Assembly: GCF_900890425.1 (NCBI RefSeq)
Contig: NZ_CAAHFG010000003.1
Location: 248,001-312,000 of the forward strand
Reading direction: 5' to 3'
Length of the DNA stretch: 64,000 nt
Origin: Pontiella desulfatans
Lineage (GTDB): Bacteria; Verrucomicrobiota; Kiritimatiellia; Kiritimatiellales; Pontiellaceae
The translations under genes were made by a program, and so were the position numbers. This document shows positions 10,649 through 43,836 of the stretch, piece by piece. The notes under the pieces were generated by a model. The model was not told the DNA's origin. It was given only the letters and a program-made list of their open reading frames with translations, and ran no database searches. The stretch's first letter is position 1, and the number at the start of each line of letters is the position of its first letter.

Positions 10649-11500
10649 ATGGGTTGGAACAGGAATCTAAAAATCGACACCCTGCGTCTGGGGCTTTATG
10701 AAGCAGGGCATTGCCGGCTCTCCCGCGAGTGGAACTATCCACGGCTCGCGAGTCCCTTTTCCCGGATTTACCTGATCGAGGAAGGCGAGGCGGTGATCCG
10801 CCATTCGGGGCTGACGCATCATTTGAAAAAAGGCGACCTGCATTTGGTTCCGTGCCATGTGACGGCGGATTACCAATGCCCGGATTTCCAAACCCAGTAT
10901 TTCGTGGGCTTCACGACCAAGCTCGAGATTGGCGCCGACCTGTTTGCCCTGCGCCGATGCGATCCGACGCTCAAGGCGGATGGGACGCATTGGGAAATCT
11001 TCAAGCGGTTGGTCGGGTTGCTGGAGCCCTTGGCGGGGGGGTATGGGCGCCTTGCCCACGTGGAGATTCCCCTGGCCGTCAGTGTGGAAGTGCGCGGTTT
11101 GGTGCTCCAGCTGGCAGCGGCGTTTCTGCGGACGGCCCACGAGCCAACGGATGTTGAGCTGGAGCGGGAGGGGCGCTTTGCCCCGATCCTCCAGTTTGTG
11201 GATGAAAACCTCCAGCGCGACATCGCGCTCGAAACCCTGGCCGAGCTGGCCGGCCTGACTCCCACCTATTTTTCCGACCTCTTTGTCAAGACCATCGGCG
11301 TGCGCCCGGTGGAGTTCATTAACCGGCGGCGCATCGAACGAGCGCAGCTCCTGCTGGGTTCCACCCGGATGACCGTCCAGGAGGTTGCCGATGCGGTTGG
11401 CATCAATAGCTCGGCCTATTTTTCCCGCCTGTTCCACCGGGTGGCGGGGATCCCTCCGCGGCGATACCGCCAGTTGTTGCTTGGCGAGGAATCGCCATAA
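10649..11500 (+). CDS. AraC-family transcriptional regulator with cupin-like N-terminus
   Basis: The 283-residue protein has an N-terminal beta-rich sensing domain (FSRIYLIEEGEAVIRHSG; HHLKKGDLHLVPCHVTADY), as in AraC/cupin regulators that bind sugars or small metabolites. The C-terminus carries two HTH motifs (LETLAELAGLTPTYFSDLF and VQEVADAVGINSSAYFSRLF). The C-terminal end GIPPRRYRQLLLGEESP is intact. It is divergent from a decayed URO-D gene and may be an orphan of that unit. No strong Shine-Dalgarno is visible before the ATG. A bidirectional terminator follows 6 bp after the stop. Confidence 0.87.
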   Translation: MGWNRNLKIDTLRLGLYEAGHCRLSREWNYPRLASPFSRIYLIEEGEAVIRHSGLTHHLKKGDLHLVPCHVTADYQCPDFQTQYFVGFTTKLEIGADLFALRRCDPTLKADGTHWEIFKRLVGLLEPLAGGYGRLAHVEIPLAVSVEVRGLVLQLAAAFLRTAHEPTDVELEREGRFAPILQFVDENLQRDIALETLAELAGLTPTYFSDLFVKTIGVRPVEFINRRRIERAQLLLGSTRMTVQEVADAVGINSSAYFSRLFHRVAGIPPRRYRQLLLGEESP

Positions 11501-27315: not shown

Positions 27316-27424
27316 CAAAAAAAGAACCCCGGGGGTTAGTCGGGGTTGCTCTCGGAGTAACGGGCGGCGGTGAGTTTGGGTTCACTTGGGTTACCGCTTG
27401 TGCCCTGAATCAAATTGTTGGGTT
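27316..27424 (-). ncRNA. Candidate small RNA, copy A
   Basis: This has no open frame but is conserved with copies at 30416-30525 and 43682-43782. The transcript is predicted to start near 27424 with ACGAACCCAACAATTTG. A stem GCGGT/ACCGC (with outer GGGC/GCCC) holds the loop AACCCAAGTGAACCCAAACTC. Next comes a constant ACTCCGA, and then a terminator hairpin (AACCCCG/CGGGGTT) with a T-run at 27323-27317. It lies between the sigma gene and the helicase gene. The start, strand and function are inferred from conservation. Confidence 0.7.
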
Positions 27425-27430
27425 CGTTAA

Positions 27431-27479
27431 TGTATACGAGGGCGGAACCGGGAGCGTTACCCGGAAACGCACTTTTTTT
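27431..27479 (-). promoter_or_regulatory. Predicted promoter of small RNA copy A
   Basis: On the minus strand: an A-run (27479-27473), CGGGTAACGC (27463-27454), a 17-nt spacer of unconserved sequence, and TATACA (27436-27431). All three copies share this order and the exact 17-nt spacing. The -35-like box is not the housekeeping TTGACA. Confidence 0.65.
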
Positions 27480-27528: not shown

Positions 27529-28137
27529 CTATCCTAATTCGCGGTTGAGCCGGGTGATTTCCGCGCGCATTTTTTCGAAAACCTCGGCCTTATAGACCCG
27601 GACGCTGGCTTCGGAGATGCCCAGTTGCTGCGCGATTTCCTTGGTGGGGGTCTCGGCCGAGACGAGTTTGAAGACCTCGCGCTTGGTTTCGTAGATGTCG
27701 TCCTTGATGTTGTCCCAGGCCAGGTTGGTGATGTGCAGCACCCATTCCTCGCGGGCGAGGTTTTCGATGTCCGGCAGCACCTGCTCCTCGATGGAGACAT
27801 ATTGTTCCTGATATTCGACCGAATCGCGCCCGGTGATGAAGTTTTTCTTGGTGCGGAAAAAATCCTTCACGGTGTTGCGGGTCATGGCGGCGAGCCAGTT
27901 GTGGAACTTGCCTTTGTTTTCGTTGTATTCAAAATCCTCGATCTTTTGCCAAACCTTGGTGAGCACGGCCTGGCTGATGTCCTCCGCATCGTCGGCGTTG
28001 ATGCCCATGCGCAGGATCAGGCTGAGGATGAAGCCGCGGTAGATGGTTTCGAATTCAAGCCACGCCTCATGGTTTTCGGTCTTCTTGAGTTTGGCCAGCA
28101 GGGTGACCCTCGTTTGATATTGGTTTTCTTCGCCCAT
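27529..28137 (-). CDS. ECF-type RNA polymerase sigma factor
   Basis: This is a 202-residue sigma-70-family protein. Region 2 contains FETIYRGFILSLILRMGINA, DAEDISQAVLTKVWQKIEDF and FHNWLAAMTRNTVKDFFRTK. Region 4 is at the end (TPTKEIAQQLGISEASVRVY). The start at 28137 (MGEENQYQTRVTLLAKLKK) is 2 nt after the stop of the kinase gene, so the two are co-translated; the longer frame from 28512 is a shadow of the kinase. In Planctomycetes and Verrucomicrobia such sigma genes next to Ser/Thr kinases are common, and phosphorylation may control the sigma. Its promoter targets are unknown; see the flanking small RNAs. Confidence 0.87.
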   Translation of the reverse strand: MGEENQYQTRVTLLAKLKKTENHEAWLEFETIYRGFILSLILRMGINADDAEDISQAVLTKVWQKIEDFEYNENKGKFHNWLAAMTRNTVKDFFRTKKNFITGRDSVEYQEQYVSIEEQVLPDIENLAREEWVLHITNLAWDNIKDDIYETKREVFKLVSAETPTKEIAQQLGISEASVRVYKAEVFEKMRAEITRLNRELG

Positions 28138-28139
28138 GG

Positions 28140-30359
28140 TCAGTTGTCGGAGTAGATGATAATGACGCCGCGGCGCGTCAGGTTGATGATGGTCTGATCG
28201 TTCCGGAATGCTTCGGCCACCGTGAGCATTTTGAGGTTTTGGTTCCAGATCAGCTGCGGCGAGATGGCCAGCTCTTCGATTCCGCTGAGATCGAGCGCCC
28301 GCAGCTTGGGATAGCGGATGATGTTGGCCAGGTTGCGGATGCGCGTCCCGCTGATGTCGAGCACTTGCAACCCCTCGAGTTGATCCAATTCGGGCAGATG
28401 GTTGAGCTGGGTTTCGGCCAGACGGAGTTCCACCAATCCATCCTCGGTCAGCAGGTTGAGGTCGGGGGAGCCGATGCGGCTGGCGTTGAGGATCAGGATA
28501 TGGAGGCCGCACAGTGGCGAAATATCATTCAGCCCCGGATTGTTGCCGATATCGATGATCCATCCCAATGAGCCGGTCGGCTGCCAGTTGAAGTTGAGGG
28601 TTTCCACTTCCGGATTAAGGATCTGCAGTGCTTCGGCAAGGGCCGGGAAGCGGGTTTCGGGATCGAAGGCGCTCTGGTTGAGGTGGTAGAACAGGCGGGG
28701 CAGGCCATCGGCGATGCCGTAGGTCTTGAAATCCTTCACCAGCCTCGGCAGGTCGGCATCCGTAATGGCGCCGGTCTCCATGTATTTCTTGGCCAGCCGG
28801 ATGGCCGGCGGGTTTTTCTCCACCGGATGGCCGTGGTTCCCGGAGAGGATTTGCCATGCATTCGTGAAGTCCAGTTGCGAAATCAGCATCTTGCCCTTGC
28901 GCATCCATGCGGATTCAAGGTTCGGGTCGAAGGCCAGGCTGGTGTCCAGCGACTGCTTGGCGGCGGCGAACTTGAAGTCCTGTTCCTGCTGCGCCATCAG
29001 GTTGAGGTAGTCCGGCGCCACTTTTTGGGCGGTTGAGGCGATATATTCGTTTTTAACCTGGAGCCGATCCAGTGCATCGAGCGCGACCCGTTCGCTTTCC
29101 TTGATGGATGAAAAGCTCTGCGCCAGAATCGTGGCGATGATGGCCGCCATGGCCGCAATCAGGCTGACCGCCAGCTTGTGGCGTTTGATCAGCAGGGCGA
29201 CGTGCGTGATGAAGGTTGGGTTTTCGGCGGTGGTGGCGAAGCCGTCCTGGTATTGGTGGACATCGCGGATGAGCGCGGCCACGTTGGGGTAGCGGTCGGC
29301 GGGATCCGTTGCCATGGCCTTCATGGCGATGGCCGCCAGCGCGGCCGGGATGCGCAGCTCGGGGGCCCGCTTGCCCGGGGGCGGGAAGTCGCCCCGAACC
29401 GTGCGTTGCAACGACTCCTTGACGGTGCCGCCCTCGATGGGGCAGTGGTGCGTCAGGATTTCGTAGAGTACGGCGCCGAGCATGTAGACGTCGGTCTGGA
29501 AATCGATGTCGGACGGGACGCCCTGCGCCTGCTCCGGCGACATGTAGCCCGGGGTTCCGCCCACCACATTCTTGTGTTCGCGCCGCTTGGCGGTTTTTTC
29601 TAGATAGCGCGTGAGCGTTTGCCCGTTTTCCAGCGAGACATCGTCGAGGCTCTTCCACGAAACGGGCTCGCCGTCGTATTCGTTCAGGTGGGTGATGAGC
29701 GTCGAGAGTCCCCAGTCGAGCACATGCACGTCGCCGAAGTCGCCGACATTCACGTTCGAGGGTTTCAGGTCGAGATGGATGACGCCCTTGGTGTGGGCAT
29801 AGTCGATGGCGTTGCAGACCTTGAGAAAGATGGCCAGCAGGCGGGTGAGGGTGTAGCGTTTTTGGTATTCCGAGTTCTGGTTTCGCAGTTTCCGGATGAT
29901 TTCGCCCAGGGTTTCGCCCTTGAGCGCCTTCATGGTGAAATAGGGATTCCCGTTTTCATCGAGGGCAATGTCGTAGATCGGGATAATGTTCGGGTGCTGC
30001 AGGTTGGCGGTCAGTCGGGCTTCATAGAGAAATGAATCGATGTCGTTTTCAGAGGCGATTTTGGAATCCTGGATCAGCGCCATGGCCACTTTGCGGGCCG
30101 TGCGGTGGTCGTCGACCTCCCAGATGGCCTTCATGCCGCCCTGGTTCAGTTTTTTGTTGGCGGAGTAGCGGTCGGCCGGGTTCCCATCCATCAAGCCGTC
30201 GCGATTCGACGCGTTTTCATGCAAATCCTCCTCGAACAGGATTTTTTCGGTATCCGAGAAGACGATGTCATCCGCGAAAAGATTGGCATTGCCGATTTCG
30301 CGACGGGGCGGCTCGGTTTTGTCCCCGGTTTCGCGTTTTATATCTGCGGATTCGTCCAT
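28140..30359 (-). CDS. Membrane Ser/Thr protein kinase with leucine-rich-repeat C-terminus
   Basis: The 739-residue protein has a cytoplasmic kinase domain (about 65-385): the loop NQGGMKAIWEVDDHRTARKV with the ATP Lys, HLDLKPSNVNVGDFGDVHVL (catalytic loop, HRD changed to HLD), LDWGLS in place of DFG, and GGTPGYMSPEQAQG. A transmembrane helix follows (SLIAAMAAIIATILAQSF, about 398-416), then a TPR-like stretch (ALDRLQVKNEYIAS...SLAFDPNLESAWMRKG). Leucine-rich repeats lie at about 620-735 (LVELRLAETQLNHLPELDQL; LQVLDISGTRIRNLANI). HLD and DWG variants are usual in this PVC kinase family. It is co-transcribed with the ECF sigma gene. The start at 30359 (MDESADIKRE) avoids a longer frame that runs into the terminator region. 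Confidence 0.88.
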   Translation of the reverse strand: MDESADIKRETGDKTEPPRREIGNANLFADDIVFSDTEKILFEEDLHENASNRDGLMDGNPADRYSANKKLNQGGMKAIWEVDDHRTARKVAMALIQDSKIASENDIDSFLYEARLTANLQHPNIIPIYDIALDENGNPYFTMKALKGETLGEIIRKLRNQNSEYQKRYTLTRLLAIFLKVCNAIDYAHTKGVIHLDLKPSNVNVGDFGDVHVLDWGLSTLITHLNEYDGEPVSWKSLDDVSLENGQTLTRYLEKTAKRREHKNVVGGTPGYMSPEQAQGVPSDIDFQTDVYMLGAVLYEILTHHCPIEGGTVKESLQRTVRGDFPPPGKRAPELRIPAALAAIAMKAMATDPADRYPNVAALIRDVHQYQDGFATTAENPTFITHVALLIKRHKLAVSLIAAMAAIIATILAQSFSSIKESERVALDALDRLQVKNEYIASTAQKVAPDYLNLMAQQEQDFKFAAAKQSLDTSLAFDPNLESAWMRKGKMLISQLDFTNAWQILSGNHGHPVEKNPPAIRLAKKYMETGAITDADLPRLVKDFKTYGIADGLPRLFYHLNQSAFDPETRFPALAEALQILNPEVETLNFNWQPTGSLGWIIDIGNNPGLNDISPLCGLHILILNASRIGSPDLNLLTEDGLVELRLAETQLNHLPELDQLEGLQVLDISGTRIRNLANIIRYPKLRALDLSGIEELAISPQLIWNQNLKMLTVAEAFRNDQTIINLTRRGVIIIYSDN

Positions 30360-30415: not shown

Positions 30416-30525
30416 CAAAAGAAAACCCCGCTGGGGGGGCGGGGTTGTCGGAGTAACTTTCAAGAAGCTTGCAACAGGTTTGGGTTCACTTGAGCCGCGT
30501 GCTTCAGTTGGGTTGTTGTTGGGTT
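30416..30525 (-). ncRNA. Candidate small RNA, copy B
   Basis: Related to copies A and C but divergent in its stem. The predicted 5' end is AACCCAACAACAACCC near 30525. The stem GAAGC/GCTTC plus GCGGC/GTTGC (two G-U pairs) encloses TCAAGTGAACCCAAACCT; different bases from A and C keep the same pairing. Then come ACTCCGA and a terminator (AACCCCGC/GCGGGGTT) with a T-run to 30416. It ends about 57 nt before the kinase start codon, so it could also act as a 5' leader or attenuator of that gene. Confidence 0.7.
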
Positions 30526-30531
30526 CGCTTA

Positions 30532-30581
30532 TTAATACGTAGGCAAAAATCCAACCGTTACCCGAAAAACGACTTTTTTTT
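30532..30581 (-). promoter_or_regulatory. Predicted promoter of small RNA copy B
   Basis: On the minus strand: an A-run (30581-30574), CGGGTAACGG (30564-30555), a 17-nt spacer and TATTAA (30537-30532). The spacer sequence differs from the other copies while its length is identical. Confidence 0.65.
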
Positions 30582-30657
30582 CACTTTTTCCGGAAACTGC
30601 GGGAAACCCTAATAAAAGCGGTTGTTTTTAGGGCGGAAAAAAATGTCGGAAACAGAA

Positions 30658-30699
30658 AGGTGACATCCATTTGCGCGATCGTGCAAATGGATGTCACCT
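30658..30699. repeat. REP-like inverted repeat, 17-bp perfect arms
   Basis: AGGTGACATCCATTTGC (30658-30674) and its exact complement (30683-30699) flank an 8-bp loop. It resembles RAYT-type REP units, but its core differs from the GGGGTCAAACGC family at 9526. The gap 30582-30887 holds no gene. Confidence 0.8.
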
Positions 30700-30887
30700 C
30701 AAATGCTACTCATGCGAGAGGGGGTGGGGGTTGGAAGCGGAAGGTTCCGCGGAGCCAGATGACGGTTTCGTCGTTCGAGAAGTTGCCGGCCCCGTTTTCG
30801 CCTTTCAGGTAGAAGGCGGCAGTGGCGGTTGTGTCGATGTGGGCATTCGGCCTTGGAAAAGCCTGCGGTATCAAATAGAAAGCCAGC

Positions 30888-31202
30888 ATGAACCTTGAAG
30901 CCCGAACCGTTGCGGCGATGATCCTCATCTATTGCAAGGCCCACCATGCTCCGGGCGGAGGGCTATGCCCGGATTGCGCAGATCTGATGGGCTATGCGGG
31001 GCGGCGCATCGAAAAATGCCCCTTCGGCGCCGGCAAGCCCGTTTGCAATCAATGCACGGTTCATTGCTACAAACCCGACATGCGGGAGCGTATCCGGGAG
31101 GTTATGCGCTATGCCGGCCCGCGCATGCTGGCCTATCATCCCGTTTTAGCGGTTCGGCACCTGCTAAGGTCGAGGAGAAAAACTTCGAACATCGAACGTT
31201 GA
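30888..31202 (+). CDS. Nitrous-oxide-stimulated-promoter family protein
   Basis: The 104-residue protein matches a small conserved family of unknown role: TVAAMILIYCKAHH, LCPDCADLMGYAGRRIEKCP, KPVCNQCTVHCYKPDMRERI and VMRYAGPRMLAYHP. The Cys/His pattern suggests metal binding. The family name comes from a promoter region in which it was first noted; it does not imply a regulatory function. The last few residues (KTSNIER) fall in a repeat (31175-31266), so the natural C-terminus may be altered. Confidence 0.75.
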   Translation: MNLEARTVAAMILIYCKAHHAPGGGLCPDCADLMGYAGRRIEKCPFGAGKPVCNQCTVHCYKPDMRERIREVMRYAGPRMLAYHPVLAVRHLLRSRRKTSNIER

Positions 31203-31267: not shown

Positions 31268-32272
31268 CTATTCGGGGAATCGCTCGAAATAGACCACGCC
31301 CTGCTTGGGGCAGATGGTGATCAGGTAGTTTTCGAGCATCAGGCGCCCGGCGCGGGGAGGCGGGTTTGCCGTACGGGTTGGATCCACGGGATAGAGCATG
31401 GTCGGCACCTTGCGATAGACCACGTCGCCAATGCTCACCTGCTTGGTCTTGCTCACCTTGACATCGCTGCGGATAAAGTGGTAGTCGCCCGCAACGTCGA
31501 GGATGATCGGGGTGGGCTCGCCGAAGATGGCTCCTTCGACCGCAAGTCCATAGCCCCGGAGCCCGACCATCTTTGCCTCCGTCATCAGCAAGTCCTGATG
31601 GGGGATATAGGGGATGCTCGCTGAAAAATGGACGGCCTCTTCCCTGAAATCGAACTGGATGTATTCGAAATGGACTAGGTTGTCCCAGCCGAACACGGCC
31701 TCCACCTTGGGTTTCTGGATGCCGCGTTCCAGCGGACCGAGCGAATTCATGGCCATGCGGACATAGAGCGGTACGTTTTCCATGAAGAGTTGGTCGATGC
31801 GAATCTGCCTGACCACGGCGGCATAGGCCTCCACCCCGCCGGTGTTGTATCCCCCGCGGTAGGGAATCGACTGATCGTCGACTCCCAGGAACGTGGCCTC
31901 GAATTCCTGGGAGGCCTTGAATTCCATCCACGACGTAGGCGAGCTGGTGTCGAGCAGCAATTTAAGCTTCATGCGGGGGGAGCGGCCGCGCACTTCGATG
32001 ACGGGAATTTTCCCTTTCTCAAAGTCGACCGTGGCCATGTGGTTCGGGTGCATCCTGGCATGGCCCCGAAAATCGAGGCCGCCTCTGACGGCATAGGCTT
32101 CGAATCCGAAATACTGCGGCATCTTGGAGTGCGCGAGGTAGGTGTTTTGCTGCATCTTCGGCAAAACGAATTCGTCGCCGTCGTCGGCCATCGTTTTTTC
32201 ATCGGCCGATTTGCAACCACCCAGCAACAAAATCGAGAGCAGGCAGGGGATAGCGAGTTCTGGCATCTTCAT
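31268..32272 (-). CDS. Lipoprotein with aspartyl-protease-like (retropepsin) fold
   Basis: The 334-residue protein has a lipoprotein signal (IPCLLSILLLGGCKSADE). Two Asp motifs resemble clan AA proteases: KLLLDTSSPTSWMEF at about 106-120 (D-T-S) and PIILDVAGDYHFIRS near 255 (D-V-A-G). Whether it cuts protein or is a non-catalytic relative is uncertain, because the second motif departs from D-(T/S)-G. It overlaps the start of the next gene (32269) by 4 bp, so they form an operon. Localisation to the periplasm or outer membrane is inferred. Confidence 0.6.
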   Translation of the reverse strand: MKMPELAIPCLLSILLLGGCKSADEKTMADDGDEFVLPKMQQNTYLAHSKMPQYFGFEAYAVRGGLDFRGHARMHPNHMATVDFEKGKIPVIEVRGRSPRMKLKLLLDTSSPTSWMEFKASQEFEATFLGVDDQSIPYRGGYNTGGVEAYAAVVRQIRIDQLFMENVPLYVRMAMNSLGPLERGIQKPKVEAVFGWDNLVHFEYIQFDFREEAVHFSASIPYIPHQDLLMTEAKMVGLRGYGLAVEGAIFGEPTPIILDVAGDYHFIRSDVKVSKTKQVSIGDVVYRKVPTMLYPVDPTRTANPPPRAGRLMLENYLITICPKQGVVYFERFPE

Positions 32273-32865
32273 GGTTGTTGTCCTTGGGTATGGGCGGGGG
32301 CCCGTTGGTCGTAGGTGTCGAGCAAATGGAGGATGTCCGCCGGCGATTCCGAAAGGCAGGCCAGGAGCAGGTTGTCGGTCAGCGCAAAGGTCAGGCTCTT
32401 GCCGCGGGCAATGTTGGGCGGGCTATATTGCCAGATCGGCCACACCGCATGCTTGCCGAGCAACTCCAGGTTTTCGTTGCGCGTGTGTTCCAGCTTCCAG
32501 CGTAGCCAGGGGCTGCGCCAGCCCACCCAGCTTGCCGCCGCCCAGCTCTTGCTGCGCCCGGCGTTGCGAAAGGGGATGTCGGCCACGGCGATTTCCGATG
32601 CCGCCGCAAGTTTAATCCAGCCGTTGGCGTCCGTGAGTTCCTTCAGGGTGTTGCCGGCGCCGAGCGCCTTGTCGAGCTGCCCGCAGACCGGGCTCTGCAA
32701 AAGCTCGCCCAGGTCGTTTGCCTTGAAGACGAAGGTGGCCCGGGCGGGGATCGCCTCCAGCACCGCATTGGGTTTGAAGGGTTGGCAAAACGAATAGCCG
32801 AAAATCGCCGCCGCAAAAACAGCGCCCAGTCCAATCGTCAGTGCAAATTGCAATTTCCTGTTCAA
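32269..32865 (-). CDS. Membrane-anchored hypothetical protein
   Basis: The 198-residue protein has an N-terminal membrane anchor or signal (LTIGLGAVFAAAIFGYSF) and a soluble body with AIPARATFVFKANDLGELLQ. The family is not recognised. It overlaps the downstream lipoprotein gene by 4 bp (ATGA), so the two products probably act together. It starts 5 bp downstream of the pyrD gene region on the same strand (pyrD begins at 33784 and ends at 32870). Confidence 0.6.
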   Translation of the reverse strand: MNRKLQFALTIGLGAVFAAAIFGYSFCQPFKPNAVLEAIPARATFVFKANDLGELLQSPVCGQLDKALGAGNTLKELTDANGWIKLAAASEIAVADIPFRNAGRSKSWAAASWVGWRSPWLRWKLEHTRNENLELLGKHAVWPIWQYSPPNIARGKSLTFALTDNLLLACLSESPADILHLLDTYDQRAPAHTQGQQP

Positions 32866-41705: not shown

Positions 41706-43370
41706 TCAGCTGGCCTGCTGCATCAGGATGACTTCTTCACTGGTCGTGTGGAAGCGGCTGTCGACCCCCTTGTTGGTGGGGCAGCCGACGATCTCGATCA
41801 GCTCCCTCATCAGATACTTGAGGTGCTCGCCGCTGTTGGAGGCCAGGTTGAGCAGGTCGCGCTGCTCCTCGGAGATTTCGCCCACATAGCCGTGCATCAT
41901 CATTTCGAGCGAGGCGTTGATGGCGGTGAGCGGTTGCATGAGTTCCTGCGCCACTTCCGAAAGAGCGGCCAGCAGCTCTGCCTGGTTCATGTTGCGTCCC
42001 TGGCCGCCAATGGTTCCGGTCTCGTCGTCCTTGAGGTGCTGCGAGAGGACATCGAGTTTTTCCTTGGTGGTAAAGATGGTGTCGTCGAGGTTGTTGCTGG
42101 CTTCGCCGAGCAGATCCTTCACCAGGGCGCCATCGGCCGAGTCCGACTTCATCAGGTTTTCGAGTTTCTCGAAGACCGTGGCCAGCGTATTGATGCCGGC
42201 GGCGATGGGCGGGTTGGATTCGCCTCCGGGAGCCTTGCGGCTGTCCACGACAATCCGGCGCCATTCGGAGGCCGGGAATTCGGATTCGGAGAGCAACCCT
42301 TCGGCCGCGGTTGCCCCGTGCGCCTTCACATAGGCTTGCAGCTCCTCTTTGCTGTGTTCGATGGCATCGCGATGTTCCATGTATTGCATCGCGGCCATTT
42401 CGAAGCCGAGGCTTTCATCCATTTCGCGGATGGTTTGAACAATTTGACGGTCGAGCTCCGGGTTGGAATCGCCGGTTAGGTCGCGCATGCGGTCGAGCAC
42501 GCTTTCCTCAAGCAGCAGGAGCGCCTTGCGCATGTCGGCAACGCCTTCCGAGGATTGGAAGGCCGCCTGCTTGCGCAATCCATTGAACGTGCGGCGCAGG
42601 CAGCCCAGTACAATGTCGCCAAGCGATTCGCCGGAAAGTTCCGAAACCGATTGCCGGACGGCGACCGATTCCATAATCATCTTGCCCAGCCGGGCGGGGT
42701 CCGAGGCCAGCTCCGCAAGTTCTTCCCCGATTTCCCCTTTGTCGTCCAAATCGATGTCGCCTTTTAGAAACGCAACGATCTGCTCCACATGGACATCGCT
42801 TGAACCGCCCTGGCAGGAAGAGCCGGCTTCATCTTCCAGGGAGTCGTCTTCCAGCACGAGCACGCCGCTGCCACCCATCCCGGCCAGGTCGCTCGTGTTG
42901 GCAACGGTTTGGTCTTCGCGAACGGCTTCGAAACGGGTTTCTTCCGTTGAGATGTGGGCGAGGCCGGCCTGGCCCATGCCGGCCTGGAAATCGTTGGCTT
43001 CCTTGCAGGAGAGCAGTTCGGCCAGTTGCAGCAGTTCGTCGTTGCTGATTTTTGAATCAATCTTCAGTCCGGTGATGCGCAGGCGCGACAGCCGTCGTTC
43101 GAGCGATTTGAGCAGGGCGCCGCTGGCGGTAACCTGGACCCCGTCAACGGTAAGAGCGCCGCTGAAGCTACCGATGATGACCTTCCTGCGCTGCGTGAAG
43201 AGGGCGGTCATGGCCTCGATCGTTGTGGTGGCGGCTTGCTGTACTGCCGGATGGTGGTTTCCGTAGGTCGTAATGATGTTGATGGTGCGGCTAAGCTCAG
43301 TTAGTGCATGCTGCAAGGCCGCGTCTTCGATGGTTTGGGACGGTATGGTTTTATGTTCTTCGGCTGCCAT
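41706..43370 (-). CDS. Large coiled-coil protein with a degenerate histidine-kinase dimerisation domain
   Basis: The 554-residue protein starts MAAEEHKTIPSQTIEDAALQ. The C-terminal region (about 460-530) resembles the HisKA domain (LLAALSEVAQELMQPLTAIN; LLNLASNSGEHLKYLMRELI), but the H-box His is Gln (VAQELMQP), and no ATPase domain follows. The N-terminus (about 20-120) is a helical bundle with ITTYGNHHPAVQQAATTTIE. It may scaffold or receive signals without phosphoryl chemistry. The start at 43370 is chosen over 43415. The convergent ilvN terminator lies just downstream. Confidence 0.6.
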   Translation of the reverse strand: MAAEEHKTIPSQTIEDAALQHALTELSRTINIITTYGNHHPAVQQAATTTIEAMTALFTQRRKVIIGSFSGALTVDGVQVTASGALLKSLERRLSRLRITGLKIDSKISNDELLQLAELLSCKEANDFQAGMGQAGLAHISTEETRFEAVREDQTVANTSDLAGMGGSGVLVLEDDSLEDEAGSSCQGGSSDVHVEQIVAFLKGDIDLDDKGEIGEELAELASDPARLGKMIMESVAVRQSVSELSGESLGDIVLGCLRRTFNGLRKQAAFQSSEGVADMRKALLLLEESVLDRMRDLTGDSNPELDRQIVQTIREMDESLGFEMAAMQYMEHRDAIEHSKEELQAYVKAHGATAAEGLLSESEFPASEWRRIVVDSRKAPGGESNPPIAAGINTLATVFEKLENLMKSDSADGALVKDLLGEASNNLDDTIFTTKEKLDVLSQHLKDDETGTIGGQGRNMNQAELLAALSEVAQELMQPLTAINASLEMMMHGYVGEISEEQRDLLNLASNSGEHLKYLMRELIEIVGCPTNKGVDSRFHTTSEEVILMQQAS

Positions 43371-43681
43371 GTGTCTCTCTCGTTTGCGTCTAAATTGATG
43401 ATTGCAAGTTAGCACAAAGCATGCCTACTGGTGGGCCCGCAGAAGAAAAGACGCACGGGTTGCAGGAGTTTCCGTGGCGAGGTGAATAGATGGAAAAAGG
43501 GGGTGGGGTTCTCCGGGTATGGGCATGGCCCTGGGTATCGATGGAGATCGCTTCCTGAACGGTCTCTGTGGCTTCGGCCGATGTCCCCGCTTGTTCTCGA
43601 TGCTGGGAATTCGTGTTTCAAAAAGGCCGCCCTTGTCGATGCCCTTTTCATGCAGGGGAAAGGGGGCGCCGGTGTCTGGGC
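43371..43681. other. Gap between small RNA copy C and the coiled-coil gene
   Basis: No gene is supported. Minor words repeat (AAAGGCCGCCCTTGTCG; CGATGCCC). Confidence 0.4.
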
Positions 43682-43782
43682 AAAAAGAAACCCCGCTGGG
43701 TTAGGGCGGGGTGCTCTTCGGAGTGGGCGGTGAATGAGTTGGGTTCACTTGGGTTACCGCCGCTTATTAAATTGTTGGGTTC
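43682..43782 (-). ncRNA. Candidate small RNA, copy C
   Basis: Start near 43782 (GAACCCAACAATTTAATAAG). Stem GGCGGT/ACCGCC around AACCCAAGTGAACCCAACTC; then ACTCCGA and a terminator (CCCCGC/GCGGGG) with T-run TTTTT to 43682. It lies between the fusA terminator (43858-43884) and the coiled-coil gene start (43370), so it is an independent transcription unit. Confidence 0.75.
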
Positions 43783-43787
43783 ATTCA

Positions 43788-43836
43788 TGTATACGAGGGT
43801 ATTTCCCGCAGCGTTACCCGAATTGGACTTTTTTTT
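43788..43836 (-). promoter_or_regulatory. Predicted promoter of small RNA copy C
   Basis: On the minus strand: A-run (43836-43829), CGGGTAACGC (43820-43811), a 17-nt spacer, TATACA (43793-43788). Confidence 0.7.

Follow-up and report, generated by a model that had tools for sequence, protein, structure and literature searches.

Pontiella desulfatans and its relatives carry a genus-wide multicopy family of predicted RNA genes of ~100 nt, previously undescribed, with promoters of ECF-sigma type; two of the three P. desulfatans copies flank a Ser/Thr kinase–ECF sigma factor gene pair. We put the probability at about one half that these are multicopy trans-acting sRNAs transcribed by the adjacent kinase-controlled ECF sigma factor, and that they act by pairing with mRNAs through unpaired AACCCA and ACUCC segments. 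No paper on small RNAs in Kiritimatiellota was found in the literature searched.

Three RNA copies in Pontiella desulfatans

The window analysed here is a 64,000 bp stretch of the P. desulfatans genome and contains three copies of the RNA gene, A, B and C (Table 1). They share a minus-strand layout of A-tract, CGGGTAACG, TATACA or TATTAA, GAACCCAAC, stem-loop, ACTCCGA and a terminator with T-run, all of which are present at the sites given in the preliminary description; the stem pairing in each copy is also as described there, with promoter and terminator both indicating the minus strand. Each of the copies folds into a hairpin with an AACCCA-containing loop, followed by the terminator. There are 11 occurrences of GAACCCAA in the window compared with 2.6 expected, and six of these are inside the three copies. 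In the whole 8.66-Mb genome the strict copies are A, B and C only, and all are within 16.4 kb; a further covariance-model match at window position 11499 has no promoter and was dropped.

Table 1. Coordinates in the window of the RNA copies, their promoters and the kinase–ECF sigma genes.
Feature	Coordinates	Strand	Details
RNA copy A	27317..27425	-	Ends in terminator
Copy A 5' GAACCCAAC	27417-27425	-	
Copy A outer stem	27402-27405 with 27362-27365	-	GGGC/GCCC
Copy A inner stem	27393-27397 with 27367-27371	-	GCGGT/ACCGC
Copy A loop and 3' segment	27352-27358 (ACTCCGA)	-	Loop AACCCAAGTGAACCCAAACTC; ACTCCGA, then terminator
Copy A promoter	27434..27479	-	A7 tract 27473-27479; GGGTAAC (TAAC 27456-27459); 17 nt; CGTAT 27434-27438
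RNA copy B	30417..30526	-	5' GAACCCAAC; outer stem GAAGC/GCTTC; inner stem GCGGC/GTTGC; loop TCAAGTGAACCCAAACCT; ACTCCGA; terminator
Copy B promoter	30535..30581	-	A-tract 30574-30581; GGGTAAC (TAAC 30557-30560); 17 nt; CGTAT 30535-30539
RNA copy C	43682..43782	-	5' GAACCCAAC; single stem GGCGGT/ACCGCC; loop AACCCAAGTGAACCCAACTCATTC; ACTCCGA; terminator
Copy C promoter	43791..43836	-	A-tract 43829-43836; GGGTAAC (TAAC 43813-43816); 17 nt; CGTAT 43791-43795
Ser/Thr protein kinase gene	28140..30359	-	Directly 3' of copy B; Pfam Pkinase 7e-29
Kinase ORF opening	30410	-	Likely start ATGGACGAA at 30359
ECF sigma factor gene	27529..28137	-	Adjoins kinase, directly 5' of copy A; Pfam Sigma70_r2 5.5e-12; NCBIfam sigma70-ECF 6.6e-20

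A covarying hairpin with unpaired AACCCA motifs

In the alignment of 43 copies 97.4% of cells are paired, a value favoured by the alignment having been fitted to the structure itself. Thirteen of the 16 pairs have changed on both sides, including all ten of the two-part main stem, and the covariation score is 0.365, compared with 0.138 for shuffled alignments and no more than 0.106 for slid partners. The covarying stem proposed from the three copies is borne out, with covariation that exceeds every control. A first alignment mispaired the stem so that RNAalifold saw the terminator alone, and a model built from eight similar copies resolved it; when single copies are folded without constraint, nearly all form this hairpin, with a mean z of about -2.

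The motif AACCCA occurs 127 times in the 43 RNAs (median three per RNA), is mostly unpaired, and ranks top among its own permutations. ACTCC is present in 40 of 44 model matches. In the most diverged genomes the promoter, the hairpin, the unpaired AACCCA and the terminator are kept and the rest of the RNA body has changed. The 5' GAACCCAAC is absent from the most diverged members, and the working motif is therefore better given as AACCCA. Inspection of the alignments revealed no conserved ORF. The family has the general attributes of sRNA genes, namely its own promoter, a conserved structure, an intrinsic terminator, no ORF and no fixed single neighbouring gene, and we infer from promoter, structure and terminator that it is transcribed.

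Distribution of the family

A transcript-only covariance model identified 43 copies in the loci examined across the genus Pontiella, to which three diverged ones can be added. There are usually one to four copies per genome, and the family is present in all 14 good-quality genomes of the genus. The simple pattern GAACCCAA...GTGAACCCAA matches in 18 of the 29 family genomes, including 13 of the 14 good ones, and the reversed pattern used as a control matches in none of the 29; in the good genome that the pattern missed (G012), copies were recovered through the promoter together with the model. One example of local multiplicity is a tandem pair in G020 (L059, G020:C200, positions 906 and 1117), whose members are ~210 bp apart and have a promoter each.

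The covariance-model search of 388 genomes of the phylum gave convincing copies in Pontiella only. Matches outside the genus in G060, G065 and G296 represent terminator or stray motif likeness at most, without promoter and body, and exact-pattern matches in unrelated phyla, which came from a contig scan mixed with genus members, are taken as chance. Copies A, B and C reach no Rfam 15 family at gathering thresholds, and the only match in the window is a tRNA; a sub-threshold scan of the three copies gave chance-level matches, the best being istR with 21.5 bits where 45 are needed. The preliminary description knew of no named family, and none in Rfam matches. It proposed a conserved trans-acting RNA: relatives do contain further copies, and the conserved multicopy family with its own promoter and covarying stem stands, although it is genus-restricted and AACCCA describes its working motif better. 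Trans action of the RNAs is plausible.

An ECF-type promoter class

All 43 copies have the promoter A-tract...RRTAAC-N17-CGTA, in which TAAC and CGTA are always 17 nt apart; an A-run lies ~15–20 nt further upstream of RRTAAC, and CC precedes CGTA. The model covered the transcript only, and every copy that it found has the promoter. The spacer of exactly 17 nt noted earlier holds for TAAC to CGTA; from CGGGTAACG to TATACA or TATTAA, the boundaries given for it, the gap is 18 nt in copies A and B. An AAC at -35 with a CGT at -10 is a hallmark of ECF promoters (PMC8103513), and no sigma-70-like site was found at copies A, B and C, where there is no sigma-70 -35 element at the right spacing. Because of these hallmarks at a fixed spacing and the lack of a sigma-70 site, the predicted promoter is by its sequence of ECF-sigma and not sigma-70 type, a class that the preliminary description does not mention.

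The strict promoter pattern has three matches in the 8.66-Mb genome, one at each of the RNAs A, B and C. In the family as a whole it has 41 matches: 27 belong to such RNAs, and the remaining 14 are to be set against 11 matches of reversed-pattern controls. In 2 Mb of other DNA the 17-nt spacing shows no excess, and the version with the A-tract does not occur.

The kinase–ECF sigma operon and its surroundings

Copy B lies between the pyrK/pyrD cluster and the kinase–ECF pair, just 5' of the pair, copy A is just 3' of the ECF gene, and copy C follows fusA; the operon between copies A and B had gone unnoticed. These three loci recur across species, with copies A and B flanking the pair in several, and for 25 of 32 copies (12.7 expected) the nearest neighbour from another genome occupies a locus of the same type. 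G004 and G005, which are the most diverged genomes with the ECF gene, have RNAs under this promoter on either side of the pair. Most copies of the RNA lie around the pair, but the linkage is not absolute, since RNA and pair are apart in G007, G018, G022, G024 and G026, where no such promoter was seen at the pair. An ECF ortholog is present in all 14 good genomes of the genus and in no other member of the class at E<=1e-60, a distribution shared with the RNA at genus level but confounded by ancestry. There are dozens of ECF-like candidates in the P. desulfatans genome, so another sigma factor could read these promoters.

Kinase-activated ECF sigma factors are known, among them EcfP/PknT and EcfK/PknS of group ECF43, which resemble the Pontiella pair in having a Ser/Thr kinase gene beside the sigma gene (PMC8999054). 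ECF43 members have no DAED in sigma region 2.2, and their known outputs are protein genes, whereas the translated Pontiella ECF has DAED (ADDAEDISQ) and falls outside ECF43 in spite of the adjacent kinase; kinase-linked ECF groups other than ECF43 do carry DAED (PMC8999054).

We note several other features near the copies. Close upstream of copy B and on the opposite strand (30888-31202, +) is a gene for a YgbA-type 'nitrous oxide-stimulated promoter' protein (Pfam PF11756, 1e-43), and an 18-pair inverted repeat at 30657-30700 (GAGGTGACATCCATTTGC...GCAAATGGATGTCACCTT) probably serves as terminator for the gene that lies upstream of copy B. Two fast-evolving proteins without a family (198 and 334 aa; 31268-32865, -) are encoded between pyrD and copy B throughout the genus, the larger with a weak aspartyl-protease hint. 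The 569-aa protein encoded 3' of copy C (41706-43415, -) matches no curated family above threshold and has a weak HisKA-like stretch.

Possible modes of action

In the model we favour, the kinase would sense a signal and activate the ECF sigma factor, which would recognise the promoters described above and transcribe the sibling RNAs. The AACCCA repeats and the ACUCC segment would then pair with G-rich translation-initiation regions (UGGGUU, GGAGU) and block translation. MicA, RybB and MicL of E. coli depend on Hfq, whereas no match to Hfq (PF17209) was found in the P. desulfatans genome, and control genomes did match; given this, the Pontiella RNAs may act by themselves or together with the only RRM-1 protein of the genome, encoded at C2:97058-97270.

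Predicted duplexes with translation-initiation regions are no stronger than those of shuffled motifs in the P. desulfatans genome and in G011, and TTGGGTT is not enriched at translation-initiation regions of the P. desulfatans genome. Several candidates were set aside. An antisense match of -30.7 kcal/mol is to an ORF antisense to copy C itself, a G011 target candidate with GTTGGGTT at its start has no ortholog in the DNA examined, and a possible complementarity of AACCCAA to conserved 16S rRNA was left as chance. An identical AACCCAAGGAGGCATCAAATG leader present six times in G020 (contigs C20, C44, C195, C235, C236 and C242) probably belongs to a mobile element gene.

The main rival of antisense pairing is that the RNAs are decoys, in which the repeated unpaired AACCCA titrates an RNA-binding protein that otherwise binds AACCCA in mRNA leaders, a CsrB-like logic with a different motif. 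Consistent with this, the multiple AACCCA motifs occupy loops and single strands and have persisted through the changes of the stems. One RRM-1 protein is encoded as well, and in 1.26 Mb of the P. desulfatans genome AACCCAA occurs just upstream of Shine-Dalgarno sequences 12 times compared with a mean of 2.4 for permutations. However, this enrichment was not replicated in G011 (no hits) or in the outgroup genome G107, and members of the order that do not have the RNA show AACCCA-SD-ATG at a similar density per Mb; we regard the decoy as rather unlikely. Antisense pairing through AACCCA and ACUCC remains our first choice by likeness to FopS (PMC11697453) and LhrC.

A different sigma factor, either housekeeping or another ECF, could transcribe the same RNA family, with the kinase–sigma neighbourhood being inherited and functionally irrelevant. 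The many ECF-like candidates and the genomes in which RNA and kinase–ECF genes are separated leave this as a tentative possibility, although there is no sigma-70 -35 element at the right spacing and the flanking positions are retained even in the most diverged genomes. All three P. desulfatans copies have a terminator followed by a same-strand gene (a SNF2 helicase gene for A, the kinase for B and the 569-aa gene for C), as would a cis-acting leader or attenuator of the next gene. The following genes vary between copies and genomes, though, copy B persists where the kinase gene has moved away, and no alternative antiterminator was identified by eye, so that a cis role is improbable. Several copies per genome and the G020 tandem pair could also reflect a mobile repeat that happens to bear a promoter and terminator, but the shared loci across species and the compensatory stem changes make this the most remote of the alternatives.

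Relation to known systems and significance

The FopS sRNAs of Bacteroides thetaiotaomicron, which act with the RRM-1 protein RbpB (PMC11697453), are like the Pontiella RNAs paralogous, with a common single-stranded motif and a Rho-independent terminator, and both hosts are polysaccharide-degrading anaerobes that encode an RRM-1 protein. There are also differences, in that the FopS RNAs, 14 in number, use a linear 5' seed and have housekeeping-type promoters, whereas the Pontiella RNAs display AACCCA on a covarying hairpin, are present in one to four copies and have a promoter of ECF type; the two were not seen to be related in sequence. Listeria LhrC RNAs have repeated unpaired UCCC motifs in loops, which are C-rich like the Pontiella motif. 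LhrC1-5 are also multicopy and their transcription is stress-linked, but they are under the response regulator LisR and in a different phylum (PMC5880928), and the Pontiella RNAs have no Rfam match.

As to promoters, the Pontiella RNAs can be compared with MicA, RybB and MicL of the E. coli sigma-E system, sRNAs with strong ECF-dependent promoters (PMC8103513). Sigma-E also has a large protein regulon, whereas the strict Pontiella promoter was found at sRNAs only. What is new about the family among sigma-controlled sibling sRNAs is a promoter class that apparently serves RNAs alone, together with the position of its copies around the gene for the sigma factor. It is conceivable, if doubtful, that the kinase-linked ECF sigma factor controls nothing but a few sibling sRNAs, of which two lie on either side of its own gene; the pathway would then have RNA as its sole direct output, and this RNA would reprogram translation independently of Hfq.

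The sequence evidence for this family is unusually firm. Its copies link RNA genes with a single class of promoter and a single kinase–sigma operon close by, which suggests a stress-type regulator with RNA instead of protein output. If the sigma factor does drive sRNAs only, the system would be unusually RNA-centred for an ECF sigma factor, in a lineage that degrades polysaccharides and has no Hfq match.
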